This document shows, in pieces, positions 6,147 to 55,285 of a stretch of 56,483 bases of DNA. Each line of letters opens with the position of its first letter. Positions within the stretch are counted from its first letter, which is position 1. Position numbers and translations under genes: made by a program. The notes under the pieces were generated by a model. It was not told the origin of the DNA. It was given only the letters and a program-made list of their open reading frames with translations, and did not search any database. Source of the stretch: a virus; the IMG/VR virus record IMGVR_UViG_3300024520_000087, positions 1 to 56,483 of that record; one strand, 5' to 3'.

Positions 6147-7214
6147 ATGAAAATCAATCTTAAAGCATTCAACGAATTAGTAAACAAAAACTTCATTGGT
6201 GTACAAAAACACCCCGATTCAGACCTTCTTATTTGGAACTACACTAATAAAGCCCAATACGATGGTGAGTGGTTGCCAGAAACAAGAATGGCTCGTGGAT
6301 TAATCACTGACTTAGATGGGAATATCCTTTATCGTTCTTTTGATAAATTCTTTAACTATGCGGAACACACAGGTGAAGATAGTAAATTAGAACCAATCCC
6401 CAATGAAGAATTCAGTGTTTATGAGAAATATGACGGCAGTCTGGGTATTTTATATTGGATTGATGGAGAGACTTTTATTTCTACTCGTGGCTCTTTTGTT
6501 TCAGACCAGGCCAAGGTTGCCACCAAGATATTACGAGATAAATACCCCAATGTTCCCTTTCAAAACTTACATGAGTGGACAATCCTTTTCGAAATAATCT
6601 ATCCAGAAAACAGAATAGTGGTTGATTACGGTGAAATGAAAGATCTGGTCTTACTAAATGCAATTAATACAGAAACTGGAGAGAGTATTAATTATAAGGA
6701 GCTGACTAAATTTGCGAAAGAAAACAATATTCCCATAGCGGAAAGATATCAATTTACATCTCTTCCAGACATGAATACTGACATTCCAATTAACGTAGAG
6801 GGTTACGTGATTGAATTTGAAGGTGGGATGAAAGTAAAAATGAAATATGACGAGTATGTGCGATTACACCGTTTGGTAACTGGCGTAAACTCAAAAACAA
6901 TTTGGGATCTTCTACGACACAAACAACCGTTTGATGAGTTGTTAGACAAAGTGCCAGATGAATTCTACGATTGGGTTAAGAAAACCAAACTCAATCTGGA
7001 GAACTCTTACAAGGAGATAGAAGACTCTGCAAAAAAGAAGTTTAAAGAGATATCTGACTTAAAAACCAGAAAAGAACAGGCATTTTCTTTATCGGGTTAC
7101 ACTTATCCTGGAATTGTCTTTAAAATGCTGGATGGCAAGGATTACGAAGAACAAATATGGAAAATTATCAAACCCAGAGCGGAAAAACCATTCAAGGAGG
7201 ACGTAGATGCCTAA
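6147..7214 (+). CDS. rnlA: T4 RNA ligase 1-like RNA ligase
   Basis: A 355-residue ATP-dependent RNA ligase that seals 5'-phosphate and 3'-OH RNA ends. The nucleotidyl-transfer motif I is EKYDGSLG, with the acceptor lysine at residue 94, close to Lys99 of T4 Rnl1. Upstream is TRMARGLITD (46-55). Downstream motifs are STRGSF (112-117), a motif IIIa-like TILFEIIYP, EGYVIEF (motif IV) and KMKYDEYV (motif V). The length matches the T4 family (about 374). The next gene, overlapping by 8 nt, is the end-healing enzyme, so the two form an RNA repair cassette. In T4 this pair reseals tRNA cut by a host anticodon nuclease. Confidence 0.93.
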   Translation: MKINLKAFNELVNKNFIGVQKHPDSDLLIWNYTNKAQYDGEWLPETRMARGLITDLDGNILYRSFDKFFNYAEHTGEDSKLEPIPNEEFSVYEKYDGSLGILYWIDGETFISTRGSFVSDQAKVATKILRDKYPNVPFQNLHEWTILFEIIYPENRIVVDYGEMKDLVLLNAINTETGESINYKELTKFAKENNIPIAERYQFTSLPDMNTDIPINVEGYVIEFEGGMKVKMKYDEYVRLHRLVTGVNSKTIWDLLRHKQPFDELLDKVPDEFYDWVKKTKLNLENSYKEIEDSAKKKFKEISDLKTRKEQAFSLSGYTYPGIVFKMLDGKDYEEQIWKIIKPRAEKPFKEDVDA

Positions 7215-8052
7215 AATAATACTAACCAAAGGATTGCCTGCAAGTGGAAAAACTACTTGGGTAAAGGAAGAACAAAAGAAAGATCCCAACCTTGTTCGTG
7301 TTAACAAAGATGATCTTCGTGCCATGTTGCATGGTGGTAAGTGGGGCAAGAATAACGAGAAGGATGTTCTTGCGATCAGAAATTTTATTGTAGATAGGGC
7401 ATTGACTCGTGGACGAAACATCGTTGTCGATGACACCAACCTTCATTCCAAACACGAGATACACTTGAAGCAAGTTGCAAAAAAGCACAACGCAGAATTT
7501 ACAATTAAAGACTTTACGAGTGTTTCACAAGAGGAATGTATAAAACGTGATCTTAAAAGAAGCAATAGTGTTGGTTCCGAAGTAATCCATAAAATGTATA
7601 AACAATTCCTCGACATTGTCTCTCCAGGTATCTTAGAGCCAGATCCAAACTTACCGACTGTGATTATTTGTGATCTTGATGGAACACTTTGTTTGTTCGA
7701 CGGAAATCCTTACGAAAGAGACTTCAGTAAGGATAAGATAAATAAACCCGTGAAATCTATCCTAGACAGCAATGAAGACGTGAAAGACATAATTTTCTTT
7801 TCTGGTAGAAATGGTAAATTCAAAGACCAAACAAGAAAGTGGCTGGACGATCACGGATACGGTGACTGTTCACTGTATATGAGAGCTGAAGGCGACACCC
7901 GCAAGGACGTGCTAGTCAAGAAAGAGATGTATGAAGAACATATTGAGGGCAAATTTAATGTACTATTTGTGTTGGACGACAGAGATCAGGTCGTAAACCT
8001 GTGGAGGGGCCTTGGCCTGGCTTGTTTCCAAGTGGCAGAAGGGAATTTTTAA
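7207..8052 (+). CDS. pseT: Polynucleotide kinase / 3'-phosphatase (T4 Pnkp-like)
   Basis: A 281-residue two-domain end-healing enzyme. The N-terminal kinase has a P-loop, GLPASGKTT (9-17), then VNKDDLR (33-39) and VVDDTNLH (73-80). The C-terminal HAD phosphatase has DLDGT (156-160) with both catalytic aspartates, FFSGRN (197-202) and DDRDQVV (257-263). Both active sites look intact, as in T4 Pnkp (301 residues). It would phosphorylate 5'-OH ends and remove 2',3'-cyclic phosphate, preparing cleaved tRNA for the ligase before it. A GGAGG at 7196 near the start supports ATG 7207. Confidence 0.94.
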   Translation: MPKIILTKGLPASGKTTWVKEEQKKDPNLVRVNKDDLRAMLHGGKWGKNNEKDVLAIRNFIVDRALTRGRNIVVDDTNLHSKHEIHLKQVAKKHNAEFTIKDFTSVSQEECIKRDLKRSNSVGSEVIHKMYKQFLDIVSPGILEPDPNLPTVIICDLDGTLCLFDGNPYERDFSKDKINKPVKSILDSNEDVKDIIFFSGRNGKFKDQTRKWLDDHGYGDCSLYMRAEGDTRKDVLVKKEMYEEHIEGKFNVLFVLDDRDQVVNLWRGLGLACFQVAEGNF

Positions 8053-18464: not shown

Positions 18465-20567
18465 ATGGCAAAGAAAGATGAAGAAAAGAAAAATTCTAAA
18501 AGTAAAGTTAGCGATCAAGAACTTGAAGCAATTGTAGCGGATTCTGAATCAAAGGCGCTCGTTCAAAAATGCCGAAATCTCTTTCATTACGCCAAGGAAG
18601 CTAGAAGGAAGTATGACTGGGAGTGGTTAGTAAGAACACTTTATGTTAGGGGATACCACTTTGCTAGATACAACAGAAACACTAGCACAGTAACTTTCGG
18701 CAATAGGAGTGGAGTTAGAATACCAGTCAATCTCTTACACGCACATTTAAGGGGTGTAAGGAATCAAGTTACTAGTTTTAGGCCAAAATGGGAGGTTTTC
18801 CCTAAGGTTACAACCGAGTCAGCCCTAGAAAACGCTAGATATTCTGGAAAAGTCCTTGATTACATTTACGACCAATCGCACATTAAAAGAGCCATAAAGG
18901 AAGTAGTTACACAATCTTTATTGTATTCAGTTGGTATTTGGCAATTCACTGTGGACAAAGATGGAAAGATTAATGTAAGAACCGTCGATCCATTTGACTT
19001 CTACATAGATCCCAACACTAGGTCCGCAGACATAAACGATCCAGAACAAGGTGCAGAATTTATTATAAGAACAATGAATATGCCTCTAGATGCTGTTGTT
19101 AAGAATCCAAACTATACGGGAGTGGAAGAGTTGCAGCCCGACAATCAGGTTGCCTCCGCTGATTACAAAAGATTTCTTTTGCAAGTAACTAGGCACATTT
19201 ATCAAAGACAACAAGAAGAAGCTCCTACTGTAATTGTTAAAGAATGCCAGTTTAGAGAACGTCAAGACGACGGCACTTTCAAAATAAGGATAGTTACTTA
19301 CATAGATTCTCTACAAACCCCGATAAGGAACGAACTTACGGACAAAACTGAGTATGACTATGAGATCTATCAAGGTGAATTAACACCGCTCGAAGTTTAT
19401 GGAGAGTCTTGGTCTAAACACCTAATACCTATTAATAGAGTAATAGATTCTCTAGAGAGTCACATCTTTGAGTACAACCACCTATTTGCTAGAGGAAGAT
19501 TTGTAATAGACAAAAATTCTGGAATCAGATTAATCGTCAATCAACACGGACAAATAATCGAGAAAAACAGAGGATCTACTGTTACATCTCTACCAATAAC
19601 ACCTCTACCAAACGCACCTTTCCAACAACTCATAAACATGAGACAACACTTTGAAGATATTTCAGGTGTACATGACGCGTCTTTGGGAAGAATACCTGCT
19701 GGAGTTAAGAGTGGAATAGGAATAGCAGAACTTAAACAGGCTGATGCTACTAACCAATCAGATCTAGTCGACAATCTTGAAGATTTTCTCTCCCGAGCAG
19801 GAGGGAGAATCCTTAAGCTTGTTGCTGAACATTGGAATACAAGCAAGCTTATTAATGTAACTGGCGAAGGAGGTAAGCCTGAGTACTTTATGGCGGTTGG
19901 AGAAAGAGGTAAATCTAAAAAGAAAAAGGATGAATTTACTTTTGGAGAGATGAAACTCCCACTAGCAACCATCGGAGCAGAAAACGAAGTAAGAGTAAAG
20001 GTTGGAAGTTGGTTAGCTTACACAAAGGAAGCTAGACAAGAAAAACTTAAAGAACTTTTCAGACTGGGAGCAATCGACCAAAAGGCCTTACTTGAACACA
20101 TGGAGTTTGGTGACATCGACGGAATAATGGAGAGAACCAGACAAGAGAGACTCTTGCAAGGTAGAGCTGGAGCACCATCTCAATCCGTACAAAGAATGAC
20201 TGGTCAGGAAATGAGCGACGAGGAACTAGCACTAGCTGAGAACGAGCTGATGTTAGAAGGAAAAGACCAACCAGTAGAGCCTGACGATGATCACGAAGTA
20301 CACATTTCTGTTCACAGAGAATTACAGGATGATCGGAAACAAGGTCACGTAATAAAGGCACACATTAATGAGCATTTGAGTTTAGCTAGGTGGCAAAGAG
20401 GACAAGAGAGTCAACCTTTTTCACCAGAAGAGCAACAAGCTCAAGGGAATGGTCCAGAAAGAAGTCCAGTAGCGCCAACACCTGACCTGGCAGCAATGCT
20501 TGCAGGAGGAGGAGGTCCAGGAGGACCAGGTCCAGGAGGACCACCACCAGGACCAGGAGGACCATAA
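18465..20567 (+). CDS. Portal protein
   Basis: A 700-residue protein placed after the terminase. It has typical podovirus/P22-like portal features: an N-terminal helical region with RKYDWEWLVRTLYVRGYHFA, VNLLHAHLRGVRNQVTSFRP, and VRTVDPFDFYIDPN, which portals use in the clip/stem region. A mid-protein IGIAELKQADATNQSDLVDN follows. The last 100 residues are acidic, then rich in Gly-Pro repeats (GGPGPGG), a low-complexity tail that is unusual. The twelve-subunit ring it forms is the DNA gate and head-tail connector. Confidence 0.88.
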   Translation: MAKKDEEKKNSKSKVSDQELEAIVADSESKALVQKCRNLFHYAKEARRKYDWEWLVRTLYVRGYHFARYNRNTSTVTFGNRSGVRIPVNLLHAHLRGVRNQVTSFRPKWEVFPKVTTESALENARYSGKVLDYIYDQSHIKRAIKEVVTQSLLYSVGIWQFTVDKDGKINVRTVDPFDFYIDPNTRSADINDPEQGAEFIIRTMNMPLDAVVKNPNYTGVEELQPDNQVASADYKRFLLQVTRHIYQRQQEEAPTVIVKECQFRERQDDGTFKIRIVTYIDSLQTPIRNELTDKTEYDYEIYQGELTPLEVYGESWSKHLIPINRVIDSLESHIFEYNHLFARGRFVIDKNSGIRLIVNQHGQIIEKNRGSTVTSLPITPLPNAPFQQLINMRQHFEDISGVHDASLGRIPAGVKSGIGIAELKQADATNQSDLVDNLEDFLSRAGGRILKLVAEHWNTSKLINVTGEGGKPEYFMAVGERGKSKKKKDEFTFGEMKLPLATIGAENEVRVKVGSWLAYTKEARQEKLKELFRLGAIDQKALLEHMEFGDIDGIMERTRQERLLQGRAGAPSQSVQRMTGQEMSDEELALAENELMLEGKDQPVEPDDDHEVHISVHRELQDDRKQGHVIKAHINEHLSLARWQRGQESQPFSPEEQQAQGNGPERSPVAPTPDLAAMLAGGGGPGGPGPGGPPPGPGGP

Positions 20568-20719
20568 TGCAATACGGGAAAAGACCAGTAGTCAAGAAGT
20601 TTAGGAGAAAAGTTACGGGACGAGGTAGAGATATAAGAGTCACTACTTTAGAAAGAAAAGAAAGAAAAAGACCAATGAGACAAAGAAGAAACATGAGAAA
20701 ACAAAGGACGGTGAGGTGA
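20567..20719 (+). CDS. Very basic small protein 1 (50 aa)
   Basis: The ATG shares its A with the portal TAA stop. The peptide has 22 Lys/Arg in 50 residues and only 3 acidic ones, with RKERKRPMRQRRNMRKQR at the C-terminus. It is the first of five small, mostly highly basic ORFs. DNA or RNA binding inside the head is a natural guess; no homologue is recognised. Confidence 0.6.
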   Translation: MQYGKRPVVKKFRRKVTGRGRDIRVTTLERKERKRPMRQRRNMRKQRTVR

Positions 20720-20723
20720 TTTT

Positions 20724-21005
20724 ATGAGAATAAAAAGACACGGATTAAGTAAAGAAAGTAGAAAACTAATTAGAAAAGGTTTGGGAATTGCCTCTATGGG
20801 AATAATGGGAGGTAAAGCCGCCAGTGTTGGTCGTGCAGCAGGAAAAAGATTGAAGAAAAGTCTTCCTACGCCCACAAAAAGACGAAGGAAAAGAGTTACG
20901 CCAACAATGAAGGCCCTTCGAAGTAAATATGGGTCACAAATGACAAAACAAGAATGGAGAGAAAGATTAAAGAAAACAAAAAGGTCTCAGAGACCAATGA
21001 AATAG
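20724..21005 (+). CDS. Very basic small protein 2 (93 aa)
   Basis: About a third Lys/Arg. Near the N-terminus LSKESRKLIRKG matches a 12-residue motif shared with the next two genes (LTKENRKARNKG and LAKDSQKMRRKG). A central glycine/alanine stretch (GIASMGIMGGKAAS) is followed by KRRRKR and a basic helix. GAGGTGAT is the ribosome binding site. Possible nucleic-acid condensing or minor head protein. Confidence 0.65.
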   Translation: MRIKRHGLSKESRKLIRKGLGIASMGIMGGKAASVGRAAGKRLKKSLPTPTKRRRKRVTPTMKALRSKYGSQMTKQEWRERLKKTKRSQRPMK

Positions 21006-21021
21006 AGAGAGGTGATTTAAT

Positions 21022-21276
21022 ATGGCTTGGAAATTCCCAGGATTAACAAAAGAAAATAGAAAAGCTAGAAACAAAGGTTTCTTTGCTCAAGTGAAAGAAG
21101 CCAGAGAAATAAAGAGAACTATCCGTGCTAGAGCAAAAGGAAAACTAACACCTCGACAAAAAGGACAACAGATAGGTAGAGCTGTTAAAAAAAGAGCAAA
21201 CATACACAAACAAATGGATACCCAAAAAAGAAAGCAAAGGCGTCCACAAGAAGACGTTTCTAAATATTTTAGATAA
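21022..21276 (+). CDS. Very basic small protein 3 (84 aa)
   Basis: About a third Lys/Arg, helical throughout (VKEAREIKRTIRARAKGKL and QKRKQRRPQED). It carries the shared motif LTKENRKARNKG at residues 8-19. Ribosome binding site GAGAGGTGATTTAAT precedes the ATG. Same group as its neighbours. Confidence 0.65.
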   Translation: MAWKFPGLTKENRKARNKGFFAQVKEAREIKRTIRARAKGKLTPRQKGQQIGRAVKKRANIHKQMDTQKRKQRRPQEDVSKYFR

Positions 21277-21278
21277 AA

Positions 21279-21443
21279 ATGGCACTTGCAAAAGACAGTC
21301 AGAAAATGAGAAGAAAGGGTCTATATAGATCTCCTTCTAGACGTGTTTCAAAGCCCAAGAAGTTGGGAACTCATCCATCTCTTAGTACTAGAAAAGTGAG
21401 CCCTAAAAGATTATTCAGAACTTTAAGTGGAAAATTACGCTAA
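21279..21443 (+). CDS. Very basic small protein 4 (54 aa)
   Basis: 54 residues with 18 Lys/Arg and one acidic residue. It opens LAKDSQKMRRKG, the third copy of the shared motif. It starts 2 nt after the preceding stop and is followed by AAGGAGGTG for the next gene. Arg/Ser/Pro content (RSPSRRVSKP) resembles protamine-like tails. Confidence 0.6.
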   Translation: MALAKDSQKMRRKGLYRSPSRRVSKPKKLGTHPSLSTRKVSPKRLFRTLSGKLR

Positions 21444-21460
21444 GGAGGTGTTTAAAAGTT

Positions 21461-21661
21461 ATGCCGATAAAAATACATTCAGACAGATTAGCTCAGGTTA
21501 AAAAAGATAGAAAAAAGAGAATGACCTATTCTATGGGTGGGCCCGAATATATCCCAGTTGACCTTTATGGTGCTAGGACCGACTACCCAAAAGGTAACCC
21601 TGGAAATCTAAAAAGGGCAGCTCAAGATATCAAGGATAGGTTTGATATGGATCTTCCATAG
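21461..21661 (+). CDS. Small basic protein 5 (66 aa)
   Basis: 66 residues with a strong AAGGAGGTG site upstream. Basic N-terminus (KKDRKKRM), then MGGPEYIPVDLYGARTDYP and a helical end. It is less extreme than the four before it and lacks their shared motif. Probably a minor head or assembly protein. Confidence 0.65.
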   Translation: MPIKIHSDRLAQVKKDRKKRMTYSMGGPEYIPVDLYGARTDYPKGNPGNLKRAAQDIKDRFDMDLP

Positions 21662-21694: not shown

Positions 21695-22075
21695 ATGCTT
21701 AAATTTACTTATTTAAATGCAGACAATAGTACAGGTGATTCACAAAACCTAGAAGCTAGGGATGAAGCATCTGGTGCAGGACTTAACAAGGATACTTATG
21801 TGAAATCTATTCACTTTGGTAACCCTGCTAATGGTGATGTCACCATTATCCACGATGCACAAACACAACCAGGACACGCTTCTGGAATGGGAAGTATTGC
21901 AGTTGGGGAAGCCGCGTGGAAATACACACACCCTACGGCAGCAGCAGGACTTCCTCATTTACCAGTGATTGACTTCACTAGTAATGGGGCGACTCAAGGA
22001 CTTCAGGTAAACGGAGGTTCTTTTCACACAGATGCAGAAAACGTTACTGTTATCTGGGAAAGAGTAGACGACTGA
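21695..22075 (+). CDS. Probable head decoration or minor capsid protein
   Basis: 126 residues from ATG 21695, with GAGGGGGGGTGA 8 nt upstream; an in-frame TTG further up is not needed. It is beta-rich (MLKFTYLNADNSTGDSQNLE, GDVTIIHDAQTQPGH, VIWERVDD) with no membrane span. Position just before the scaffold and capsid suggests a head protein such as a decoration trimer; this is inference. Confidence 0.6.
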   Translation: MLKFTYLNADNSTGDSQNLEARDEASGAGLNKDTYVKSIHFGNPANGDVTIIHDAQTQPGHASGMGSIAVGEAAWKYTHPTAAAGLPHLPVIDFTSNGATQGLQVNGGSFHTDAENVTVIWERVDD

Positions 22076-22090
22076 TAAGCATTGAATAAT

Positions 22091-22312
22091 ATGCTTTATC
22101 AACACGGAGGAGAAGGAACAGGTTCCTACAAAGGAAAAGGTTCTTCTTCTAAATTAAAACAACATGGAGGGGAAGGGTCGGGATCTGGAAAATCTTCTGG
22201 TGGAGTTAAACTTTTTAACCCATCAAAGGCAGACTATTCTGGACCTGGAAGACATCTTAAGACTGTTTCTTACAGTATGAAAAAGAAAGGCAACAGTAAG
22301 ATGTCCTATTAG
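22091..22312 (+). CDS. Glycine-rich small protein with QHGGEG repeats
   Basis: 73 residues from ATG 22091. Two copies of QHGGEG(T/S)GS lie at about residues 4 and 25, then GKSSGG and a basic C-terminus. It looks flexible and disordered. Function unknown; probably part of the head gene set. Confidence 0.5.
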   Translation: MLYQHGGEGTGSYKGKGSSSKLKQHGGEGSGSGKSSGGVKLFNPSKADYSGPGRHLKTVSYSMKKKGNSKMSY

Positions 22313-22469: not shown

Positions 22470-23216
22470 ATGAATAATGACAACAACGATTCTACTTCTC
22501 AAGTATCCGAAGAGGAATTGAGTGATGAGCTCTCGTCAAGCACAGAAGAACAGGGGGTGAAGACAACAGCTACTCCTGTAGAAGATTCATCTGACGAGGA
22601 ATCTACTCAAATAGGTGGGGAGGACGGTGAACCCAAAGGAAGAGGCGCTGAAGCAAGAATAAAACAGCTTTTAGCGGAGAATAAAACTAAAGACGCACAA
22701 ATAGCATCTTTAGAAAACTCTAGGGTAGAGAAATCTACTCCCATTCCACGGGAAACATCCAATCAAAAACCACCCGAGGTTTTAAGAGCTATATCCCAGT
22801 TGAAAAACATGGGAGTCAGTTTTGACAGCGACGTTGACCAAAAGGTCGCGGACGTACAAAACAGATTAACTCTTAACAACGAACATGGAAGGCTAAATGA
22901 AACGTATAACGGTTCAGATGGTCGTCCTAAATACAACTCGGACGAGGTTGAGAAGTATATGCGAGACAATGGAGTGTACCAACCTGAGGTTGCGTATAAG
23001 ACCATGCATGAAACGGAGTTACTTGATTGGAACTTAAAACAATCTTCCCAGAAACCTAAAAGCTATACAGCACCACCTACTGCACCAGGCAGTAGAGGGA
23101 GCCAGACTATAACTAGGGAGAAACTTGCAGAAATGCAAGACAAACCTAATTACAAAGAATGGTACAACAAGAATCGAGACAAGATTCTTAAGTTGATGGC
23201 TGAAGATAAGTTATAA
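22470..23216 (+). CDS. Capsid scaffolding protein
   Basis: 248 residues right before the major capsid gene. The first 55 residues are very acidic and Ser/Thr-rich, then comes a helical coiled-coil-like segment (EARIKQLLAENKTKDAQIAS, LENSR), a proline-rich middle and a basic C-terminal helix (WYNKNRDKILKLMAEDKL) suited to binding capsid. This is the usual scaffold layout. A GAGGGGGTGATT site precedes the start; ATG at 22466 or 22470 are both possible. Confidence 0.8.
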   Translation: MNNDNNDSTSQVSEEELSDELSSSTEEQGVKTTATPVEDSSDEESTQIGGEDGEPKGRGAEARIKQLLAENKTKDAQIASLENSRVEKSTPIPRETSNQKPPEVLRAISQLKNMGVSFDSDVDQKVADVQNRLTLNNEHGRLNETYNGSDGRPKYNSDEVEKYMRDNGVYQPEVAYKTMHETELLDWNLKQSSQKPKSYTAPPTAPGSRGSQTITREKLAEMQDKPNYKEWYNKNRDKILKLMAEDKL

Positions 23217-23237: not shown

Positions 23238-24110
23238 ATGGCATTAGGAACAAATCATTTAACAACGACAACATCAGCGATATTTATACCTGAGGTATGG
23301 TCACCGGAAATTCTTAGGGCAACTGAGGAAGCTTTGGTTATGGCCCCTTTGGTAAAACGTTTTGATTCAATGGTTACCTCAAAAGGTGATACTATACATA
23401 TCCCTAATTTGAGTAACTTGAGCGCCAATGATAAGTCAGCTAATACTCAAGTCACGCTACAGTCTCCAACGGAAACTGAAGTAACAATCAGCATCGATAA
23501 GCACAAAGAAGCTTCGTTCTTGGTTGAAGACATAACTAGAGTTCAATCAAACTATGATCTTATGAGTGAGTATACAAATAAGGCAGGATTTGCAATTGCT
23601 AAACAGGTAGATACTGACCTACTCGGTGAGTACACAAACCTTACTAGCACTGACGTCGGAACTTATGGTGACGACATCACAGATCCAACTGTTTTGGCTG
23701 GTATCGAAGCTCTTGATCTCGCAGACGTCCCTATGGAAGATAGGGCTTTTGTTATAGATCCAACTCAAAAGACTGCGCTTTCGAAGATAGATAAATTCGT
23801 AAGAGCTGACTATTTGGGTGAGTATCAAAGTCCAAAACCTGCAAAGGTTGGACCAAACAGCCGATATATGTGGGGAGACATTTATGGAGTTCCTGTGTAT
23901 TACACCAATCAAGTACCTAGTACTGCTGGTACACCTACACAGATTCATAACATCCTTCTACATAAAGAAGCGTTTGCGCTCGCTATGCAACAGTCTCCAA
24001 GAACTCAGAGTGATTACATTCTCGAGTATATTGGTAATTTAGTTGTGGTAGATGTTATTTATGGTATTAAAACCATAAGAGCAGATTTCGCGATCGAAGT
24101 TCGATCGTAA
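23238..24110 (+). CDS. Major capsid protein (HK97-fold, podovirus type)
   Basis: 290 residues. It starts with a Thr-rich N-arm and AIFIPEVWSPEILRATEEAL. KGDTIHIPNLSNLS, VEDITRVQSNYDLMSEYTNK and a C-terminal DYILEYIGNLVVVDVIYGIK follow; the last resembles the P-domain strand of HK97-fold coats from P22/T7-like podoviruses. Strong AGGGGGGTGAG ribosome binding site, as expected for the most abundant virion protein. Its place after terminase, portal and scaffold agrees. Confidence 0.9.
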   Translation: MALGTNHLTTTTSAIFIPEVWSPEILRATEEALVMAPLVKRFDSMVTSKGDTIHIPNLSNLSANDKSANTQVTLQSPTETEVTISIDKHKEASFLVEDITRVQSNYDLMSEYTNKAGFAIAKQVDTDLLGEYTNLTSTDVGTYGDDITDPTVLAGIEALDLADVPMEDRAFVIDPTQKTALSKIDKFVRADYLGEYQSPKPAKVGPNSRYMWGDIYGVPVYYTNQVPSTAGTPTQIHNILLHKEAFALAMQQSPRTQSDYILEYIGNLVVVDVIYGIKTIRADFAIEVRS

Positions 24111-33951: not shown

Positions 33952-34560
33952 ATGCCACAACTAACAATTAACGCAGAAACAGGAAGCTCTGGTGGGCAAG
34001 CTAGGGGGATAGACAACTCGTGGGCTACTGTTCGTGGACAAACTAATGCAGATGACGCAGATCAAAATAGTGCAAGAATGGCATCCAATTTCTCGGGTGG
34101 TAGCTATTTTATAAGGCGCGGATTCTTGAAGTACGATCTTACTGGAATCCCATCGGGGTCAACAATAGATGCGGTTACTTATCAACCATATTGTCTCTCT
34201 AGTGGGAGCTCTAATGATGACTCAACTTCGCTTGAGGTTGTTGTCTCTACAGCAGATGACAATATTGGGACAAACGATTATAACAACATCACTTTTAGCA
34301 GTTTGGGGAGTATTAACCTTTCATCTATTAATCAAGACGACTATAGCGACATCACACTAAACAGTACGGGAATAGATCATGTTAAAGATAATTTGACGAA
34401 CGGATCTGTTAAGTTTGCTCACATTACAGGGAGGGATCTCAGCAACAGCGCACCAGGCGGTGACAATGAATGTCAAATAAACGATGGGGATGCGGCGCAA
34501 CCAACCAGAATAGTGGTCACATACACATCACCAGGTGGAATTTTATTTATGTTAACTTAA
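33952..34560 (+). CDS. Beta-sandwich virion protein (DNRLRE-like)
   Basis: 202 residues. FIRRGFLKYDLTGIPSGSTI, DAVTYQPYCLSS and a C-terminal PTRIVVTYTSPGG follow the order of DNRLRE/carbohydrate-binding-type modules: R-G-(F/L)-L-(K/R)-(F/Y)-D-L and a final V-x-Y strand. It may bind a surface glycan. Confidence 0.7.
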   Translation: MPQLTINAETGSSGGQARGIDNSWATVRGQTNADDADQNSARMASNFSGGSYFIRRGFLKYDLTGIPSGSTIDAVTYQPYCLSSGSSNDDSTSLEVVVSTADDNIGTNDYNNITFSSLGSINLSSINQDDYSDITLNSTGIDHVKDNLTNGSVKFAHITGRDLSNSAPGGDNECQINDGDAAQPTRIVVTYTSPGGILFMLT

Positions 34561-34562
34561 TT

Positions 34563-35264
34563 ATGGCAAAAGCAACAAATCTATGGGAGTACTACTCCCA
34601 AAAAGGACAACAGCTCCCTTCTGTTTCAGAAAGAAGAGATCAGTTTAGTCTGGGCGGTGATTATCGGGGAACAGCTCAACAAAACCAACAACTATTGGGT
34701 AGATTGCAGGGCGATCAGTCACGGGTTTTATCCCAATCAGCTCAAGCTCCTCCCACGATTTCTTCTATGACCAGAACAAGACCATCTGTTTCTTATGCGG
34801 AGTACACAAGACCAACTAATCCCTCTGACCCAATATCTCTTATACAAAAGTACTTTCCACAACATGAGTGGGAGAACGCTATTAAAGTGATGCAGGGGGA
34901 GAGTGGTGGAAATTCTGATGCAGTTGGAGACAACTATCCAATAAGAGGACGAACAATTCCTAGTTACGGGCTTTTCCAAATCAGAGCATTAGAGGGAAGA
35001 CCAGCACCAGAACAACTCTTAGACCCAGAAGCTAATGTTAAATATGCAGCCGAAATGCAAGCTGCACAAGGATGGCAACCCTGGACTGTGGCGAGGAACA
35101 TGGGTCTTTCGGGGACCACTCCTATTGCAGGAAAGACTCAAGCTTTCCAACAAGCTGTTCAACAACCAACACAACAACCGACACAGCAAGCACAACCACA
35201 AGGAATGAGTAGAGATGATCTTATGAAAAGAAGTGCAGAAATATTAAAGGGAGGTAAATTATGA
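34563..35264 (+). CDS. Virion lytic transglycosylase (SLT-like lysozyme fold)
   Basis: 233 residues from ATG 34563. The lysozyme-like domain is at residues about 93-185: AIKVMQGESGGNSDAVGDN with the catalytic glutamate in GESGGN, then PSYGLFQIRALEG and a tail with VKYAAEMQAAQGWQPW. SLT enzymes cut peptidoglycan to let DNA in. A Gln/Pro repeat (QQPTQQPTQQ) follows. It heads the ejection-protein genes. Confidence 0.85.
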   Translation: MAKATNLWEYYSQKGQQLPSVSERRDQFSLGGDYRGTAQQNQQLLGRLQGDQSRVLSQSAQAPPTISSMTRTRPSVSYAEYTRPTNPSDPISLIQKYFPQHEWENAIKVMQGESGGNSDAVGDNYPIRGRTIPSYGLFQIRALEGRPAPEQLLDPEANVKYAAEMQAAQGWQPWTVARNMGLSGTTPIAGKTQAFQQAVQQPTQQPTQQAQPQGMSRDDLMKRSAEILKGGKL

Positions 35265-35932
35265 GTTTTATAGACGATTTGGTAAATGCAGGTTACATTG
35301 GGTATCAAGGATGGGGAGAGGCTGAAGCAGCGGCTGATTTCCAGGCTACTGGTGGAGCAGGAAAAGAAGGTGGCGGAGGAGGGGGCGGTGGTGGTGGCGG
35401 AGGAGGGGGAGACTTTGGAGCACCATTTAACTTTAACTGGGAACAAGCAGAGACTGATGCTCTTGAGAAACTAAGACCTTACTATGAGGAAGTATTAGCT
35501 GAAGCCAAAGGTGACGTTGAGCGCGCCAAGAAGATTATCGAAGAGGACTATTCCACAGGCAAAAGATATAGAGAAGAAGATCTTGGCACTGCTCAAGCTG
35601 GTTTTGCATTAAGTGAACCCAGAGAGAAAAATGTGATGCTTGAGGATTTGAACCGAAGAGGCCTCCTTAAGAGTACTGTTAGAACTGAAGATCAGGATTT
35701 TCTAAACACCAAGCAACAAAGAAGGAGAGAAGCAATTGAAAGAGCCACTCAAAGAAAAGGAGAATTAGCTGGAGTAGATCGCGCACGAGGCATTGAAGAA
35801 ATAGACATTAAATTCCCAAGATTTGAAAGAGACTTAGGAGAGGAAAAGAAAGAGAGAGCGGCTGCAATGGCTGGTCAACAGTTTACTAGAGATCAATCTA
35901 AATTCTTAGCAGAAACAAGTAGATTCCTATAA
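35261..35932 (+). CDS. Internal virion protein with a polyglycine tract
   Basis: 223 residues. A run of about fourteen consecutive Gly (residues 37-50) separates a small N-terminal part from a long charged helix (WEQAETDALEKLRPYYEEVL onward). ATG overlaps the preceding stop by 4 nt. Helical ejection-type protein; the G tract is encoded by GGA/GGT/GGC repeats and may vary in length. Confidence 0.6.
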   Translation: MSFIDDLVNAGYIGYQGWGEAEAAADFQATGGAGKEGGGGGGGGGGGGGGDFGAPFNFNWEQAETDALEKLRPYYEEVLAEAKGDVERAKKIIEEDYSTGKRYREEDLGTAQAGFALSEPREKNVMLEDLNRRGLLKSTVRTEDQDFLNTKQQRRREAIERATQRKGELAGVDRARGIEEIDIKFPRFERDLGEEKKERAAAMAGQQFTRDQSKFLAETSRFL

Positions 35933-37134
35933 TGGCACAATTTGAAGACATACAAAACCAATTGGCTCAAACTCGAAAAGACTATGGTCAGCGCGTAGCT
36001 GATTATCCAACTTTTGAGAAAGATTTACGTAAAGAAGTATATGGATCAGATCAAATACTTCCAAAACTAAGATCTCAAAAAGACCAAGCATTAATGGAGC
36101 TTTGGAATGCGGACAAGAGACTTTCTGATCGATACGCCAACCCAGAGAGTGAAATGTTTATTAGAGATCCTTATAAGAGAGAGTCAGTCACTTCAGATCA
36201 ATATGGAGGGATCCTTGAGGGACTCGCAGGAACTACTCGCCTCGCTGAACGTCGAGAAGATATGTTGGGGGATATCCTAGAACGTGGTGTGAAGATATTT
36301 GAATTAGGATTAAGCGCTAAATCAAGAGAACACGACATGCTTAGGGGTGAATTAGACGCAATGCTTAAACAAGCAGATATGGCTGAAAAAAAAGCGGATC
36401 AAGCTCAAGCCACGAGTAAAGAGGAGTCAATAAACGAGATAATTAAGTACATTATGTCTGACGTTGACATAACAGACCCAAATGAAATAACGGAAACACT
36501 AAAAGCTGTGGGGAGCCAGCAACCAGAAGTTATTCCTGATCTGATTGGTTTTCTAGGAACTCTACCTAAACAACAAGAAGGGCCAATAACAAGCATTGAA
36601 GACGCTCACACTAAGTTCAGCACTGGAGCTGATAGGAATAAATTCGCAGAACACCTAGATTACTTGTCTGAGTTGAACCAAATAAGGTCTGGTTTTACAG
36701 AAGCTGATGTAAGCAGTAATTTCCTTGCAAATCTATTTGAAGGACAAACGGGACCACTGTCAAGTTTGGCTGGTCAAAAAATTGGACCACAAGAGTCTAG
36801 AGAGCTTAGGTCTAAGTTGGAGGGGTACAGAACTAAAGTCAGAAAAGGACTATATGGTTCTGTGTTGACAGAGAGAGAAATACAAGAAGCCAAGAAATAC
36901 TTACCAGGCACGGGAGTACAAGAGGGTGAAAACTTAGTGAGGATAGAAACACAACTCCAAGAAAAAGAAACCAACCTTAAAAACTTCTTGCTGGCTAATG
37001 GTTTCTCAATGGATGAGGTCGAGGTGATTCTAGAATACACAAAAGCTGGAACCAACGAAGACGCCTCGGACCTTGAGGGTATTATTCCAGGAAGTTATTT
37101 AAATGAAGCTGATTCTTTATTAGGAGATTTTTAA
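35932..37134 (+). CDS. Helical internal/ejection protein
   Basis: 400 residues, nearly all helix, with two coiled-coil-like sections (residues about 1-60 and 120-165). No enzyme motif. Overlaps the previous gene by one base. Position between the transglycosylase and the 578-residue protein matches the ejection proteins of P22-like podoviruses. Confidence 0.6.
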   Translation: MAQFEDIQNQLAQTRKDYGQRVADYPTFEKDLRKEVYGSDQILPKLRSQKDQALMELWNADKRLSDRYANPESEMFIRDPYKRESVTSDQYGGILEGLAGTTRLAERREDMLGDILERGVKIFELGLSAKSREHDMLRGELDAMLKQADMAEKKADQAQATSKEESINEIIKYIMSDVDITDPNEITETLKAVGSQQPEVIPDLIGFLGTLPKQQEGPITSIEDAHTKFSTGADRNKFAEHLDYLSELNQIRSGFTEADVSSNFLANLFEGQTGPLSSLAGQKIGPQESRELRSKLEGYRTKVRKGLYGSVLTEREIQEAKKYLPGTGVQEGENLVRIETQLQEKETNLKNFLLANGFSMDEVEVILEYTKAGTNEDASDLEGIIPGSYLNEADSLLGDF

Positions 37135-37135
37135 C

Positions 37136-38872
37136 ATGGAAGATATTTCAATATTATCAAGACTTACACAAAACAGAAAGAGAATTGTTAGTCAATTCAA
37201 AACTGACGCTAGAGAGCGTGGTTTGTCTCGTGACCAAGCCACTCAAGAACTCGCGGGTAGACTTAAACAATGGGATGAAGGTGAAGGTTTTTGGACTTCA
37301 TTGGGTAGAGGTCTTGTTTCTCCTTTTGTTGAGACTGGAAGAAATATAGCCACAGCAGGAGTGGAATCTGCAAGAGCACCCGTGCTTGCAGCCCTGTCTA
37401 AAACAGACCCAGAAAGAGCTGCTCAGCTCGCTCAACCCCTTTCTTCTTCCAAGTTGGCGCCCATTTTTAAGAGCGAAGCGCAAATGGAACAAATAGGTGA
37501 AAAACCAGGTAGAGCTTTATATGAACAAGGTGTTAAGCCAAGTGCTGGTGTTGCTTCTTACGCCATACCCTTTGGGAAGGGAGCAAGTCTTCTCACCAAA
37601 GCAGCGGTTCCTGGAGCAGTATCTGGAGGATTACAAAGCCTTGCGCAGACACCAGAAGAGGCCGATCTTAAAGAAACGCTCACAAGTGTAGGTCTTGGAT
37701 CGGTTGTTGGTGCGGTAACTGCAACTGCATCTGCAAAACTAAGTGAATACGCCAAAGGTAAAATAGCCAAAATGGCACAAAAGAGAGCAGCTCTTAAACA
37801 ACAACAGCAAACTGGTTCATGGAAACCATCTGACTTTGGAAAAGGGGATTGGACTCAAGAAAACATTCTCAAAAGAACTGGAACTCGGCTAGTCGCAGGA
37901 CAACAAGACGTTCCTGCTGGAATGGGTAGAGCAACAAACCAAATGGAAACAGCCAGAAAGATGGCGGATTATGGATTAGCCAATGCTGACAATTGGCCTA
38001 GTGCTGCTAATACAATTACAGGAAGAGATGGTCTTATTACAAAAGTAACTCGCAGAGCCGTAGGAAAAGCAGATGATGTTGTTATTGACGGTTGGTTAGA
38101 CATGTCAGATGATCTCTTAATCAATTCACCCGAGATTGGTGCTTCCAAACAAAAAGGAGTAAAGGCATTCTTTAAAAACTTACTAATGAAAACAACTGGT
38201 GGAAGTAAAGGAAGTCTCAATCCTAAAGCAGATCCTACGGATGTTTTTGAGGCTATCCAGATTCTTGAAGGTAAGGCCGCAAGCATTAAAGGAGGAAGAC
38301 CTTCTTGGAGTCTAACCACAGAAGACAAAGCAATGATGGAGGTTTATCATTTAATGGCCGATGAGCTAAAAGATAGACTCTTTATAGAATCAGGAGCTAA
38401 TAACCAAATAATATCGTCTCTTTCAAGGGCTGACATTGCTAAACTAAAATCGATCTCTCCTAACCTATATGATGACGTTGCTGCCGCCAAAACAGTCAGT
38501 CAATTAAGAAACGTTGCTAAACCTTTTGTAGATGCCCATAAGCTCTTCAAAGAAGGAATAGCTACTGGTAGTTCACCGTTTTATCAACTAGGTGGGGGTA
38601 AGCCAAAAGGTCTCGGTAAGCTCGCTGGAGGGTTTGCCAGAGGGCTTCCTTTTGCTGAATCAATCCTTGAAAGTAAACCTGTCACTTCAGGGGCTGGACA
38701 AGCACTCAGGAATATTGGTAGTTCGTCTTTCGCGTCCGTCCCAGGTAAGATTTCTGGTGCGGTTACATCGGGAGCTTCAAAAGCGGCTGGTGCTTTGGGA
38801 AGGGGCACAAAAGGAGCAGCCATTCTACCTTCGTTAATAATGGCAGCACAACAACAACTTAGAAAACGTTAA
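37136..38872 (+). CDS. Large internal/ejection protein
   Basis: 578 residues. N-terminal coiled coil with RLTQNRKRIVSQFKTDARER, then a Gly/Ala-rich stretch with GLVSPFVETGRNIATAGVES and GLGSVVGAVTATASA that could contact membrane, a long mixed region and a Gly/Ala/Ser C-terminus. Such amphipathic Gly/Ala stretches are typical of proteins that cross the envelope during DNA ejection. Confidence 0.6.
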   Translation: MEDISILSRLTQNRKRIVSQFKTDARERGLSRDQATQELAGRLKQWDEGEGFWTSLGRGLVSPFVETGRNIATAGVESARAPVLAALSKTDPERAAQLAQPLSSSKLAPIFKSEAQMEQIGEKPGRALYEQGVKPSAGVASYAIPFGKGASLLTKAAVPGAVSGGLQSLAQTPEEADLKETLTSVGLGSVVGAVTATASAKLSEYAKGKIAKMAQKRAALKQQQQTGSWKPSDFGKGDWTQENILKRTGTRLVAGQQDVPAGMGRATNQMETARKMADYGLANADNWPSAANTITGRDGLITKVTRRAVGKADDVVIDGWLDMSDDLLINSPEIGASKQKGVKAFFKNLLMKTTGGSKGSLNPKADPTDVFEAIQILEGKAASIKGGRPSWSLTTEDKAMMEVYHLMADELKDRLFIESGANNQIISSLSRADIAKLKSISPNLYDDVAAAKTVSQLRNVAKPFVDAHKLFKEGIATGSSPFYQLGGGKPKGLGKLAGGFARGLPFAESILESKPVTSGAGQALRNIGSSSFASVPGKISGAVTSGASKAAGALGRGTKGAAILPSLIMAAQQQLRKR

Positions 38873-38873
38873 T

Positions 38874-40034
38874 ATGGCAATGTGGCAAGATATATCAGAT
38901 TTATTTAGATCGGGGGCTAAGAGGTCTATTGGTTTTTTGACCAACGATCCTAGTTTTGATGAACCCGTAGCCGCTCAGAAAAACACTCAGGCAACCTTAG
39001 AAGGGAAAGTAATTGAACAAGGCAAACAAGACTTGAGAGATTTTGTTCAACGACAAGGACGCAGTCAACCTTTTCAAAAAAGTGGAGGAGCAGCCGCGTC
39101 TCTGGGACAACGAGTGGCGTCTATTCCAGAGTTCTTGAGAGTTTTGGGAAAAGGAATCCCCCATCAAGTTCCTTATTCAGACAAGCCAGAACAGAGATTT
39201 ATAGGAGAGGAGAAATTGCTTCCTTTTAAAAGTGATCCCAACAAATTCGCTGTCAGACCTAATGAAACGATTTTGGAAAGTATTGCTGCTCTTATGTCAC
39301 AGGGGTTGGATCAATTTATGAGTCCTGCAATGGCCACCAAACAAAGAGCCAGGATAATTAAGGATTTATTCAAAGAGGAAGTAACAGGACCTATATTCCA
39401 AAATTTAAGAGAAAGTCCCGAAGCTGAAATGCTTAGGAAGTTCGAGCAAACAACTGAGTCTACGAAAAAAAGAAGGAGTTTGGTTCCTGAAGTTAAAGCA
39501 GCCAGTACAGAACAAGCTCCAGAGGTCCCAGATCAACCTGGTTGGATGTCGAACAAGGCTGCAATAAGGGCGTTGGAGACTGGAGAGAAAATTGTAGACT
39601 CACCAGTGGGAGAATTCTTGAATCAAACACAACACCCAATGGGAGCAATATTCTCTAATTTAAGTCCAGAGGAAAAGGAGCTATTCACCCAATCCAGGAA
39701 AAAGAAACTTACAGAACTCACGTCGGCAGAACGCAAGGTGGAGGCGAAGGTGTCTCGAAACATTCCCAAGATTGGCTTAACATCCCCACAAACAGTAGGA
39801 CTAACAAGTGTCCCTTTATTTAAGGGAGACAAGGGGTTTAAGCTTCCAAGTAAGATAACGAAAGAGACAGTGACTAAGATAGGTAAAACGGGTAGGCCTT
39901 TATATGAACATCTCGTTGAAAGAGCAACATTTGACCAAAATCCAGCATTATTAAAGAAGATCATTGACGTCATGCCTAATGTCGCAATGAAACCTCACTA
40001 TGCTAGGTATTTAATTAACATGCTAGCCAATTAA
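38874..40034 (+). CDS. Internal virion protein
   Basis: 386 residues, mainly helical and charged, starting in a TAATATG junction. Contains a Lys/Arg/Gln-rich region with no recognised motif. Likely the third ejection-type protein or a virion-associated protein; weak assignment. Confidence 0.5.
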   Translation: MAMWQDISDLFRSGAKRSIGFLTNDPSFDEPVAAQKNTQATLEGKVIEQGKQDLRDFVQRQGRSQPFQKSGGAAASLGQRVASIPEFLRVLGKGIPHQVPYSDKPEQRFIGEEKLLPFKSDPNKFAVRPNETILESIAALMSQGLDQFMSPAMATKQRARIIKDLFKEEVTGPIFQNLRESPEAEMLRKFEQTTESTKKRRSLVPEVKAASTEQAPEVPDQPGWMSNKAAIRALETGEKIVDSPVGEFLNQTQHPMGAIFSNLSPEEKELFTQSRKKKLTELTSAERKVEAKVSRNIPKIGLTSPQTVGLTSVPLFKGDKGFKLPSKITKETVTKIGKTGRPLYEHLVERATFDQNPALLKKIIDVMPNVAMKPHYARYLINMLAN

Positions 40035-46911: not shown

Positions 46912-47144
46912 TGGCGACTAAATTAGTAAATCCAAGAGGAAGAACGATTGTGGTAGAGGATACCTCTGTTTCGTCGCTGCTTAAAAGAGGTTTTGTTTTC
47001 CCCCCAGAAGATCAAAAGGGTATGCGATATTCGCAAGTTCACGACAAAGGCGCAGATAATGCTAGACCTTACAGAAAGGAGAAGCAACCAGCCAAATTAA
47101 CAATTGAACGACTTGGAGACGTGTTGCCAGTAGATACGATATGA
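46911..47144 (+). CDS. Small hypothetical protein before the glycan island
   Basis: 77 residues, overlapping neighbours by 1 and 4 nt. The pattern TKLVNPRGRTIVVEDTSVSS with LLKRGFVFPPEDQKG recalls small proteins found beside phage glycosyltransferases. Function unknown. Confidence 0.55.
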   Translation: MATKLVNPRGRTIVVEDTSVSSLLKRGFVFPPEDQKGMRYSQVHDKGADNARPYRKEKQPAKLTIERLGDVLPVDTI

Positions 47145-48292
47145 TTTGGAGGACAAAAAACGAACTATCGAAACCAGTGAGTGTTAAGTATTGTGGTCCG
47201 TTTCTTGACTTTACAGGATATGGAGAAGCTAATAGAAACGCCATCATGGCACTTCACACAGTAGGAGTAGAAGTAACCACAGAAAAAGTAGAATATGCTT
47301 CAGGAAATGCAGACTTCGGAGAAGCAGCCGAATTAGCACAAAGACTAGAAGGAAGACCAATAAAATACGACATCAAGATTGTCCATGTGCCCTCAGATGG
47401 ATACATGAAGTTTCTCGAACCAGCCAAGTATCACATAGGACATTTGTTTTGGGAAACGGATAGTATTTCAAAAACATGGGTGTGGAATTGTAACTTAATG
47501 GATGAGATATGGACTGGCGGCCAAATACATAAAGAGAACTTCAGAAGAGCGGGAGTCAAGGTTCCGATACACGTTTTCCCACAGGCAATTGATAATGTAA
47601 TTCAAGTACAGAAGCCATTCCGAGTCACAGACCATAAGGGATACATGTTTTATTCCATATTCCAGTGGATAGAGAGAAAGAATCCTAAAGCTTTATTGAA
47701 GGCTTACTGGGAAGAGTTTCAAGGAGAAGACAATGTTTCGCTGTTGCTTAAGGTTTACAGATTTGGTTTCGATAAGAGCGAAAGAGAGCAAATTAGAAAA
47801 GACATCAATGATTGGAAAGAAGAGTTTGGCCATAAACACTTCCCTAAAATATTCTTGTTCTTTGATTTAGTAGATAAATCAGATATGTTTAGGATTCACT
47901 ATACTGGTGATTGTTTTGTTTCAGCACATAGGGGAGAAGGTTGGGGAATCCCTCAAGCAGAAGCAGCCGTTATTGGAAATCCAATAATCTCAACTGGGTT
48001 GGGAGGAGTACATGAATGGTTTGAAGACGAGAAGTCGGCATTCTTAACTAAGTGGAAAAGAACCAAAGTGAAGAATATGGACTTTGCCCCATGGTACGAA
48101 AAAAACCAGCATTGGGCGGAAGTAGATCACGCAGACCTTAAAAAAAGAATGAGGTTTGTTTTTGACAATCCAGAAGAAGCAAAAAAGGTCGGAAACATGG
48201 CCAAAGATGTAGCATACAACAAGCTATCATATAAGGCAGTCGGTGAAGCAATGAGAGACAGGCTGGTTGATATACAAAGATTAATAAAATGA
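47141..48292 (+). CDS. GT4-type glycosyltransferase
   Basis: 383 residues. N-terminal GT-B entry FLDFTGYGEANRNAIMALHT. C-terminal donor site CFVSAHRGEGWGIPQAEAAV, then GNPIISTGLGGVHEWF (about residues 260-295), with the E-G-W-G-x-x-x-x-E-A core of GT4 enzymes. First gene of the island. The sugar and acceptor are unknown. Confidence 0.88.
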   Translation: MIWRTKNELSKPVSVKYCGPFLDFTGYGEANRNAIMALHTVGVEVTTEKVEYASGNADFGEAAELAQRLEGRPIKYDIKIVHVPSDGYMKFLEPAKYHIGHLFWETDSISKTWVWNCNLMDEIWTGGQIHKENFRRAGVKVPIHVFPQAIDNVIQVQKPFRVTDHKGYMFYSIFQWIERKNPKALLKAYWEEFQGEDNVSLLLKVYRFGFDKSEREQIRKDINDWKEEFGHKHFPKIFLFFDLVDKSDMFRIHYTGDCFVSAHRGEGWGIPQAEAAVIGNPIISTGLGGVHEWFEDEKSAFLTKWKRTKVKNMDFAPWYEKNQHWAEVDHADLKKRMRFVFDNPEEAKKVGNMAKDVAYNKLSYKAVGEAMRDRLVDIQRLIK

Positions 48293-48495
48293 GAAACGAA
48301 ATAAAAGTAGAAGTAGCAGGGGAAACTGGATATGAGGCGGGTATTAAGTTTTATGGAAGAAGAATAGCGGAATTAAATACAGAAGGAGTTACTGGAATGA
48401 CATTCGAAAATCTTTTAATTGAAGAGGAGCGAGAAACAGCTGTACTTAAATTGGCACAACTCGAAAGAAGAAAGGGGCTGGGTTTTATTAAATGA
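48289..48495 (+). CDS. Small hypothetical protein
   Basis: 68 residues with ATGA overlaps at both ends, charged and helical. It lies between two glycosyltransferases; possibly an accessory subunit. Confidence 0.5.
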   Translation: MRNEIKVEVAGETGYEAGIKFYGRRIAELNTEGVTGMTFENLLIEEERETAVLKLAQLERRKGLGFIK

Positions 48496-49520
48496 AAATA
48501 CTGTATTTATCGTGCCACAGCGTCCTAGAATTTGATGAAGTTTCCTTGTTAACAGAACTCGGCCATGAGGTTTTCTCCTGCGGCGCATACAGCAACCCTC
48601 TTTTGGGGGGAGACAATAGACGTGGACCCATTAAGGGAGCCAAGTTCCATGACACACTTTTTAGTACCTACATGCAATGTTCCAAGGAGAAGCTTCATCC
48701 CGATTTGGTTGCCTGGGCCGATGTAGTTATTTCCATGCATAATTCAAAAATACCTCTTCAAAAAACAGAACAGCCTTGGATTACTGGAAATTGGCCCTTA
48801 CTTAAAAACAAGCGAACCATATGGAGATCGATAGGGCAATCCATCCAGTTAATCGAAGAAGAGCTCCAGTTCTACAAAGACCAAGGACTGCAAATAGTTA
48901 GATATTCTCCTAAAGAAAATACAATCCCTTCTTACGCAGGGGACGACGCCATTATCAGATTCTACAAAGATCCAGACGAGTACAAAGACTGGAATGGTAA
49001 AAAGGAAATAGTTTTAAATTTCAGCCAGTCATTAAAACAAAGGGGAGATCATTGTGGTTACGATGTATTCATGAAAGCCACGGATGGTTTTAATAGAAAA
49101 GTATATGGTCCAGGGAATTCAGATTTGGGAGATTTGTGGGGTGGGGTAGTCGATCAAGATGGACAGAAAAAGTTATATCGAGATAGTAGGGTTTATTTTT
49201 ACAATGGAACCGCACCAGCTTCTTACACATTAAGTCTAATAGAAGCTATGATGACAGGTATCCCCGTGGTTGCAGCAGGCCCAGCATTCACCCAAGGTCT
49301 GTACAATCAAGACACCAATGAAATAGAAGACATAATCCAAAACGGTGTAAATGGATTTGTAAGTAATGACACAGAGGAACTTAAAAAGTATATTGAATTA
49401 ATGATGAATAGCAAAGAAGACGCCAAGAGAATAGGAGATGCAGGTCGAATAACAGCTAAAGCGATGTTCGGAAAAGACGCAATACGTCAACAATGGGAAG
49501 GATTTTTAAACAATGGATGA
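48492..49520 (+). CDS. GT-B glycosyltransferase (GT4-like)
   Basis: 342 residues. The C-terminal half has RVYFYNGTAPASYTLSLIEA, then MMTGIPVVAAGPAF, and NGVNGFVSNDTEELKKYIEL: the GT4 E-x7-E region with PAS-YTLSLIEAM in place of the usual EGFG. The N-terminal half starts KILYLSCHSVLEFDEVSLLT. Both halves of GT-B are present. Confidence 0.8.
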   Translation: MKILYLSCHSVLEFDEVSLLTELGHEVFSCGAYSNPLLGGDNRRGPIKGAKFHDTLFSTYMQCSKEKLHPDLVAWADVVISMHNSKIPLQKTEQPWITGNWPLLKNKRTIWRSIGQSIQLIEEELQFYKDQGLQIVRYSPKENTIPSYAGDDAIIRFYKDPDEYKDWNGKKEIVLNFSQSLKQRGDHCGYDVFMKATDGFNRKVYGPGNSDLGDLWGGVVDQDGQKKLYRDSRVYFYNGTAPASYTLSLIEAMMTGIPVVAAGPAFTQGLYNQDTNEIEDIIQNGVNGFVSNDTEELKKYIELMMNSKEDAKRIGDAGRITAKAMFGKDAIRQQWEGFLNNG

Positions 49521-50121
49521 TTTTCTCACACCCAATAACTGGTTTAAAGAAAAGTTCCGTGATAAATCAGGAGAGCGTTACCACACGTTTAAAGCAGGAC
49601 TCAATCTTTATTTACAGAGACGGGGGGAAATTGCCGTGGAAACAGGAACTCAAAGTAAGTCAGAAGACTGGGAATCAGGATGCAGCACTACATTAATAGG
49701 ATCAGTCACTGATACATGCGGAAGCACTCTGTATACAGTAGATAATGTTAAAAACAACCTCGGAGAATCAAAAAAGGTAACACAAGAATATGGTAAAAGC
49801 ATAAAATACATGTTGACTGACTCGGTTGAGTTCCTGGGCAAGTTCGATAAACGAATAGATTTCCTATATCTTGACAGTTGGGAACTCCCCAAAGAAGAAC
49901 TCGATCTAGAAATCTACAAAAAGGAAATGGTTAGATACCAAAGACATTGTTTGAAAGAAATAGAAACAGCTTGGCCTCGACTACACAAAGACTCAATAGT
50001 ATTATTTGACGACTATGACTTACCGTCAGAAAGTGTGCCCAAGCTAGCGGTAGATTGGCTGAGAGCGATGGGATGGAAAATAGTACTCTCAGGCCAACAG
50101 TGCTTAATGATATCAAGATGA
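49513..50121 (+). CDS. SAM-dependent methyltransferase-like protein
   Basis: 202 residues. VETGTQSKSEDWESGCSTTL near 41-60 resembles motif I with E-T-G-T, LYTVDNVKNN the motif II acidic strand and FLYLDSW the post-motif strand. DSIVLFDDYDLPSES follows, typical of class I methyltransferases acting in sugar pathways. Overlaps both neighbours. Confidence 0.7.
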   Translation: MDDFLTPNNWFKEKFRDKSGERYHTFKAGLNLYLQRRGEIAVETGTQSKSEDWESGCSTTLIGSVTDTCGSTLYTVDNVKNNLGESKKVTQEYGKSIKYMLTDSVEFLGKFDKRIDFLYLDSWELPKEELDLEIYKKEMVRYQRHCLKEIETAWPRLHKDSIVLFDDYDLPSESVPKLAVDWLRAMGWKIVLSGQQCLMISR

Positions 50122-50813: not shown

Positions 50814-50829
50814 AAGATCAAACAAATAT

Positions 50830-53293: not shown

Positions 53294-53483
53294 AACCCTA
53301 GGAGAACTAATAGATGAACTAACAATAACCAACCTTAAGATTTTCATGTTGGTAGATAAAGTCCAAGACGACAGCCACACTCGTGAAGATTCTAAGAAGA
53401 TACAAGACCTTAATCTTTACAGATCCAAACTAAAGAACGCCATCAATGCAGGGCTAGATCAACAACAGGAGGTAAAGCTGTGA
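53286..53483 (+). CDS. Small helical protein
   Basis: 65 residues from GTG 53286 with AAGGAGGTG upstream, helical (LGELIDELTITNLKIFMLVD). Unknown; probably coupled to the transferase after it. Confidence 0.55.
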   Translation: MRKTLGELIDELTITNLKIFMLVDKVQDDSHTREDSKKIQDLNLYRSKLKNAINAGLDQQQEVKL

Positions 53484-55263: not shown

Positions 55264-55285
55264 TAAAACCAGCAGTAATATAATT

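Follow-up and report, generated by a model that had tools for sequence, protein, structure and literature searches.

Directly behind the portal gene of an uncultured phage lies a run of small, strongly basic genes that may be a cassette of late head genes for proteins carried inside the virion, s1 being its core and s2, s3 and s4 fast-evolving cargo with a docking tag. We favour this reading tentatively. The gene s1 is conserved behind the portal gene in related phages, and s2 to s4 share a 12-residue motif on bodies that are otherwise alike only at the level of chance.

Head genes of the window

The window, that is, the whole 56,483-base virus record, comes from an uncultured short-tailed phage, marked by a P22/SU10-type portal, an SU10-type adaptor, an HK97-type capsid protein and an amidase. 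The places and lengths of five ORFs (s1 to s5) given in a preliminary description of this DNA hold, as does its statement that about one third or more of the residues in the first four are Lys or Arg (Table 1). It had also set the cluster between portal and scaffold. The head-gene location is borne out, downstream of the portal and upstream of the scaffold and major capsid protein, but two further conserved genes precede the scaffold. One of these, the Gly-rich protein, has a GPGRxL-like C-terminus in most members. The scaffold candidate matched no Pfam or PHROGs family; it also occurs in relatives, directly upstream of the capsid gene.

Table 1. Positions of head-region features in the window and of two small-protein families in other loci
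Feature	Locus	Positions	Strand	Remarks
Portal protein, P22/SU10 type	window	18465..20567	+	PF16510 6e-27, PF23899 2e-15; immediately upstream of s1
s1, 50 aa	window	20567..20719	+	44.0% Lys+Arg; conserved family
s2, 93 aa	window	20724..21005	+	34.4% Lys+Arg; motif LSKESRKLIRKG, residues 8-19
s3, 84 aa	window	21022..21276	+	33.3% Lys+Arg; motif LTKENRKARNKG, residues 8-19
s4, 54 aa	window	21279..21443	+	33.3% Lys+Arg; motif LAKDSQKMRRKG, residues 3-14
s5, 66 aa	window	21461..21661	+	21.2% Lys+Arg; separate conserved family
Conserved acidic protein, 126 aa	window	21695..22075	+	candidate head-decoration protein; lies after s5 and ahead of the scaffold
Small Gly-rich protein	window	about 22091..22312	+	repeated QHGGEG units; kept in relatives
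Scaffold candidate	window	22470..23216	+	acidic, pI 4.9; named by position and composition
Major capsid protein, HK97 type	window	23238..24110	+	phrog_267 5e-51
Second basic family	L006	8660-8827
Second basic family	L046	26-154
Second basic family	L047	1565-1729
Second basic family	L072	4645-4809
Second basic family	L127	3936-4079
Second basic family	L129	5138-5287
MPLTxxGxK family	L151	5001-5360
MPLTxxGxK family	L154	3501-3656
MPLTxxGxK family	L155	3925-4068
MPLTxxGxK family	L156	4001-4738

The portal and the small basic genes are one operon-like run, and no promoter-like sites were found on the plus strand of the portal-to-capsid interval. A search for RNA families between positions 15000 and 30000 returned none. 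No near DNA match to the window was found among isolated phages, and the single host clue, a distant capsid match (38% identity) in a deltaproteobacterial MAG, is uninformative. Elsewhere in the window, an RNA ligase (PF09511) is followed by a protein that gives the impression of a kinase/phosphatase (6147-8052), a possible RNA-repair pair, and the right end (47141-55996) holds genes that look, by sequence impression only, like those for glycosyltransferases, methyltransferases and epimerases.

Under a random model of the same composition, net charge is in excess for s1, s2 and s4 (p about 0.018, 0.023 and 0.004, respectively), whereas the excess is unclear for s3 (0.2) and absent for s5. DNA this rich in purines would by itself account for some of the Lys and Arg. 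In synonymous codon use, the annotated frame of s1 to s4 fits the large genes of the phage best among the three forward frames; since equally high scores occur in some reverse frames of s1 and s4, codon use alone is no proof. It seems very improbable that these are spurious ORFs in purine-rich DNA. Composition does predict part of the charge excess, notably in s3, but s1 is conserved with an excess of third-position differences, while s2 to s4 have a motif beyond chance, ribosome-binding sites in two of the three, and fitting codon use. The small basic genes are supported as real protein-coding genes.

A protein family behind the portal gene

The start codon of s1 overlaps the portal stop by one base (TAATG), and s1 may be made by coupled translation from the portal's own message. 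By sequence comparison, s1 is a new, previously undescribed protein family, missing from Pfam and PHROGs, whose features are a K-x-T-x-x-G-R core, an Arg-rich C-terminus and a gene directly behind the portal. Some 100 related loci, all of uncultured phages, were collected by searching with the capsid and portal proteins. The family comprises 15 distinct sequences including that of the window: a first set of homologs came from L003, L004, L005, L006, L017, L044, L047 and L072, and profiles added those of L116, L118/L119, L121, L124, L127 and L129. Leave-one-out profiles recognised each of the nine first members (0/500 shuffles each), and the s1 of the window scored 50.9 bits against a profile of the other eight (0/1000 shuffles). 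Pairwise differences are more frequent at third codon positions than at first or second positions.

Where a relative has a portal of 53% identity or more and its contig extends further, s1 is always beside the portal gene, with nothing in between except in L003 and L121, which have one small ORF there. The junction gap is -4 to +10 nt in eight of the nine tested, and starts often overlap the portal stop. Distant relatives (portal about 51% identical or less: L131, L048, L080 and L133) are without s1 and often hold other small basic ORFs behind the portal. Absence from virions together with a lack of conservation in related phages had been named in the preliminary description as an outcome that would count against it; because s1 is conserved in them, that outcome does not apply to s1.

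The steady place of s1 in near relatives, with start codons that overlap or nearly abut the portal gene, would also suit assembly factors, that is, basic proteins that bind the acidic scaffold (pI 4.9) or the portal ring while the procapsid is assembled and are not kept as cargo. We consider this unlikely, given that it leaves the tag of s2 to s4 unexplained and that near relatives do without s2 to s4 despite conserved scaffolds and portals.

An AlphaFold2 model of s1 suggests, at low confidence (pLDDT 62), a hairpin of residues 9-17 and 21-28, and a solved-structure search with s1 found nothing. When s1, s2 and s3 were compared by tblastn with 50,697 phage records, the result was either nothing or composition-level matches, to Streptococcus satellite phages (E 5-8). 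None of the five ORFs had a convincing Pfam or PHROGs match, the best being a sub-threshold match of s3 to RRF (E 0.04).

The five ORFs, first presented as one cluster, fall apart into the conserved s1 family, the virus-specific s2 to s4, and s5, which is outside the basic group as a non-basic conserved family. The s5 pattern, P-x-D-L ... N-L ... R-F-G-L, is kept in about 20 loci. For s5, a solved-structure search gave nothing credible and a fold search with its model gave no match.

A shared motif on dissimilar proteins

A common motif, L-[STA]-K-[ED]-[SN]-[RQ]-K-x-x-[RN]-K-G, is present near the N-termini of s2, s3 and s4, as had been noticed before. The three-way ungapped BLOSUM62 score of this motif is 103, which was reached in none of 1500 whole-protein shuffles (best 93) and none of 5000 N-terminal shuffles (best 83), all of which kept protein composition. 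From residue 29 to the end, 574 of 1500 shuffles scored as well as the real proteins. The earlier view that the three are diverged copies thus stands for the motif only, because s2 to s4 are unalignable beyond it. As a regular expression, the motif has three matches in the window and, among the loci searched, is found elsewhere only in contigs of the same virus; as a score matrix run over the six frames of the window, it finds only s2, s3 and s4. In s2, it is followed by a Gly/Ala-rich stretch and a basic C-terminal half.

The motif regions of s2 and s3 are also close at the DNA level, and a 13-nt repeat spans the ribosome-binding sites of both, which is weak support for duplication because this phage has many leaders of that kind. 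The gene for s4 is without a clear Shine-Dalgarno sequence and starts 2 nt after the s3 stop, and its translation is likely coupled to that of s3. In 2.9 million viral contigs, no relatives of s2 to s4 were found; s2 and s3 matched only one further contig, which belongs to this virus too. Membership of s2, s3 and s4 in the s1 family was rejected (65, 82 and 958 of 1000 shuffles, respectively, scored as well).

We put the internal proteins IPI, IPII and IPIII of phage T4 through the identical test as a control. Their tag scored 112 (0/5000 shuffles), and 581 of 1500 shuffles matched the remainder. Like s2 to s4, the T4 proteins are small and net-positive, with a short shared N-terminal tag and otherwise unrelated remainders, and in both systems the proteins vary between related phages. 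We prefer tagged internal cargo because the T4 internal proteins are built in this way and the control gave the same pattern. To our knowledge, a tag on a variable body is otherwise found only in T4-like and giant phages. T4 tags are cut off by the prohead protease. No such protease was recognised among the part of the window's proteins that was scanned. T4 internal proteins are basic, are present in about 360 copies each and bind DNA at low salt; their N-terminal targeting sequence, of which 10 residues suffice, is joined to proteins that are poorly conserved among relatives, and IPI inhibits a host restriction enzyme (PMC9026906).

The two systems differ in several respects. The window tag (LxK[ED][SN][RQ]KxxxKG), a basic one, sits partly inside the proteins (residues 3-19), whereas that of T4 (MKT[YF]xEF) lies at the very N-terminus; Lys and Arg make up 33-34% of s2 to s4 and 14-19% of the T4 proteins; and the s2 to s4 genes lie within the head operon. 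Membership in the T4 family itself was rejected, given the different tag, the lack of sequence homology and, among the window proteins scanned, the lack of a recognised protease.

In the preferred cargo reading, presence in the virion, tag-mediated docking, binding to DNA and ejection are inferred. The tag would dock s2 to s4 on a procapsid component, either the acidic scaffold or the portal, so that they would be enclosed before DNA packaging. Their strongly positive bodies would then bind the incoming DNA and exit with it into the host. With the tag alone constrained, the bodies would be free to turn over fast between relatives. Against this reading, the motif is seen in one virus only and has no known partner, purine-rich DNA accounts for part of the charge, and the canonical ejection-protein candidates lie elsewhere. 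Condensation of DNA inside the head, as suggested earlier, may be one role. The net charges of s1 to s4 are 19, 29, 22 and 17; if these proteins were as abundant as T4 internal proteins, they would neutralise roughly one quarter of the genome phosphates, a figure that follows from the assumption and does not count as evidence.

The Lys/Arg composition alone could point to simple protamine-like condensers, which would bind packaged DNA by charge, with the motif as a DNA-binding basic helix and no tag. The motif is basic and, judging from its residues, might form a short helix that ends at its glycine. The condenser reading seems quite improbable, since the motif is also kept at uncharged or acidic positions (L, S/T/A, E/D, S/N and G), beyond what charge would need.

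A broader form of the cargo reading is possible but rather doubtful: the uncultured short-tailed clade may have independently evolved a protease-free capsid-cargo system with a short basic tag. Such a tag, unrelated in sequence to that of T4, would admit fast-changing small basic proteins for delivery with the DNA. If these proteins are virion cargo, the clade would offer a second, simpler route by which proteins are loaded into the head and injected, and a place to seek counter-defence proteins in phages without T4-type machinery.

Ejection proteins of P22, T7 and SU10-type podoviruses are large, unlike s1 to s4, although they share the fate proposed here, entering the head at the procapsid stage and leaving it together with the DNA. 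We rejected s1 to s4 as canonical ejection proteins, for which there are separate candidates at 34560-40034. There, a protein with an SLT lysozyme-like domain is followed by large proteins, which by their place are putative ejection proteins. The SLT-domain candidate parallels gp20, the transglycosylase ejection protein of SU10 (PMC9509320).

The portal-scaffold slot in related phages

Of the small called ORFs in 19 contigs, strongly basic ones make up 16 of 46 between portal and scaffold and 9 of 210 elsewhere; the contrast is large, and its Fisher p of 6e-8 is optimistic because some loci had been inspected beforehand. The relatives carry no s2 to s4 and have nothing or other basic ORFs in their place. 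The slot holds nothing besides s1 in L004, L005, L017 and L118; in L003, s1 is preceded by a 58-residue LTKSGKK protein and followed by two other small ORFs. The authors of the preliminary description knew of no phage family with such a cluster, and a literature search for basic proteins encoded in this interval turned up no relevant work; there is now an uncultured clade with s1 and variable small basic ORFs, though not with the same cluster. Small genes beside the portal are routinely called hypothetical or left uncalled, and s1 is a conserved family among them.

Six loci share another family of basic proteins in this slot (Table 1). This undescribed family, behind s1, has a helix-turn-helix-like pattern, FSKxxIAKILGVKPxxLTxxGGYVR. 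Shuffle-controlled profiles rejected s2 to s4 as its members, and likeness of s2 to s4 to the other small ORFs of L003 was not significant.

Such a pattern, together with fast turnover between relatives, would fit late non-virion proteins that act on host nucleic acid or ribosomes and sit in the head operon for timing. This, too, seems unlikely: Pfam and PHROGs scans linked the proteins to no ribosomal family and to no other known family that binds nucleic acid, and one would not expect a host factor to stay beside the portal gene as steadily as s1 does.

Other small basic proteins, uncharacterised so far, occur in or near the same slot, of the type MPLTxxGKKxM..YGxKKGxxVFYASxNKGKI. They adjoin the portal in HTVC023P, MW202711, L003, L013 and L022, are near it in HTVC033P, and lie in the structural gene region in HMO-2011. 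Among 15 proteins tested, one, the L003 member, has an N-terminus similar to the window motif (5/2000 shuffles). Against a profile of about 40 residues of this LTKxGKK family, 214, 65 and 742 of 1000 shuffles did as well as s2, s3 and s4, respectively, and membership was rejected. The unannotated family MPLTxxGxKIxxxMxxxYGxKKGxxVFYAxxNKG is found among the head genes of marine phage isolates (HMO-2011, HTVC033P and HTVC023P) and of an environmental genome, and several members adjoin the portal or terminase. DUF6496 (PF20106, phrog_2423) is also a small basic head-module protein, with one in the same slot of L014; none of the five window ORFs matches either profile.

The major capsid gene of L072, a relative, contains a group I catalytic intron (6314-6505; Rfam RF00028, 68.6 bits), and those of L015 to L017 have an extra stretch of similar size, which in L017 is without an Rfam match. 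Extra ORFs interrupt or precede the capsid gene in L027 (2239-2856), L019, L023 and L149, and the portal gene of L149 is split by a large insertion. The L027 ORF resembles an HNH endonuclease by eye, and the extra ORFs of these four loci are possible homing endonuclease insertions.
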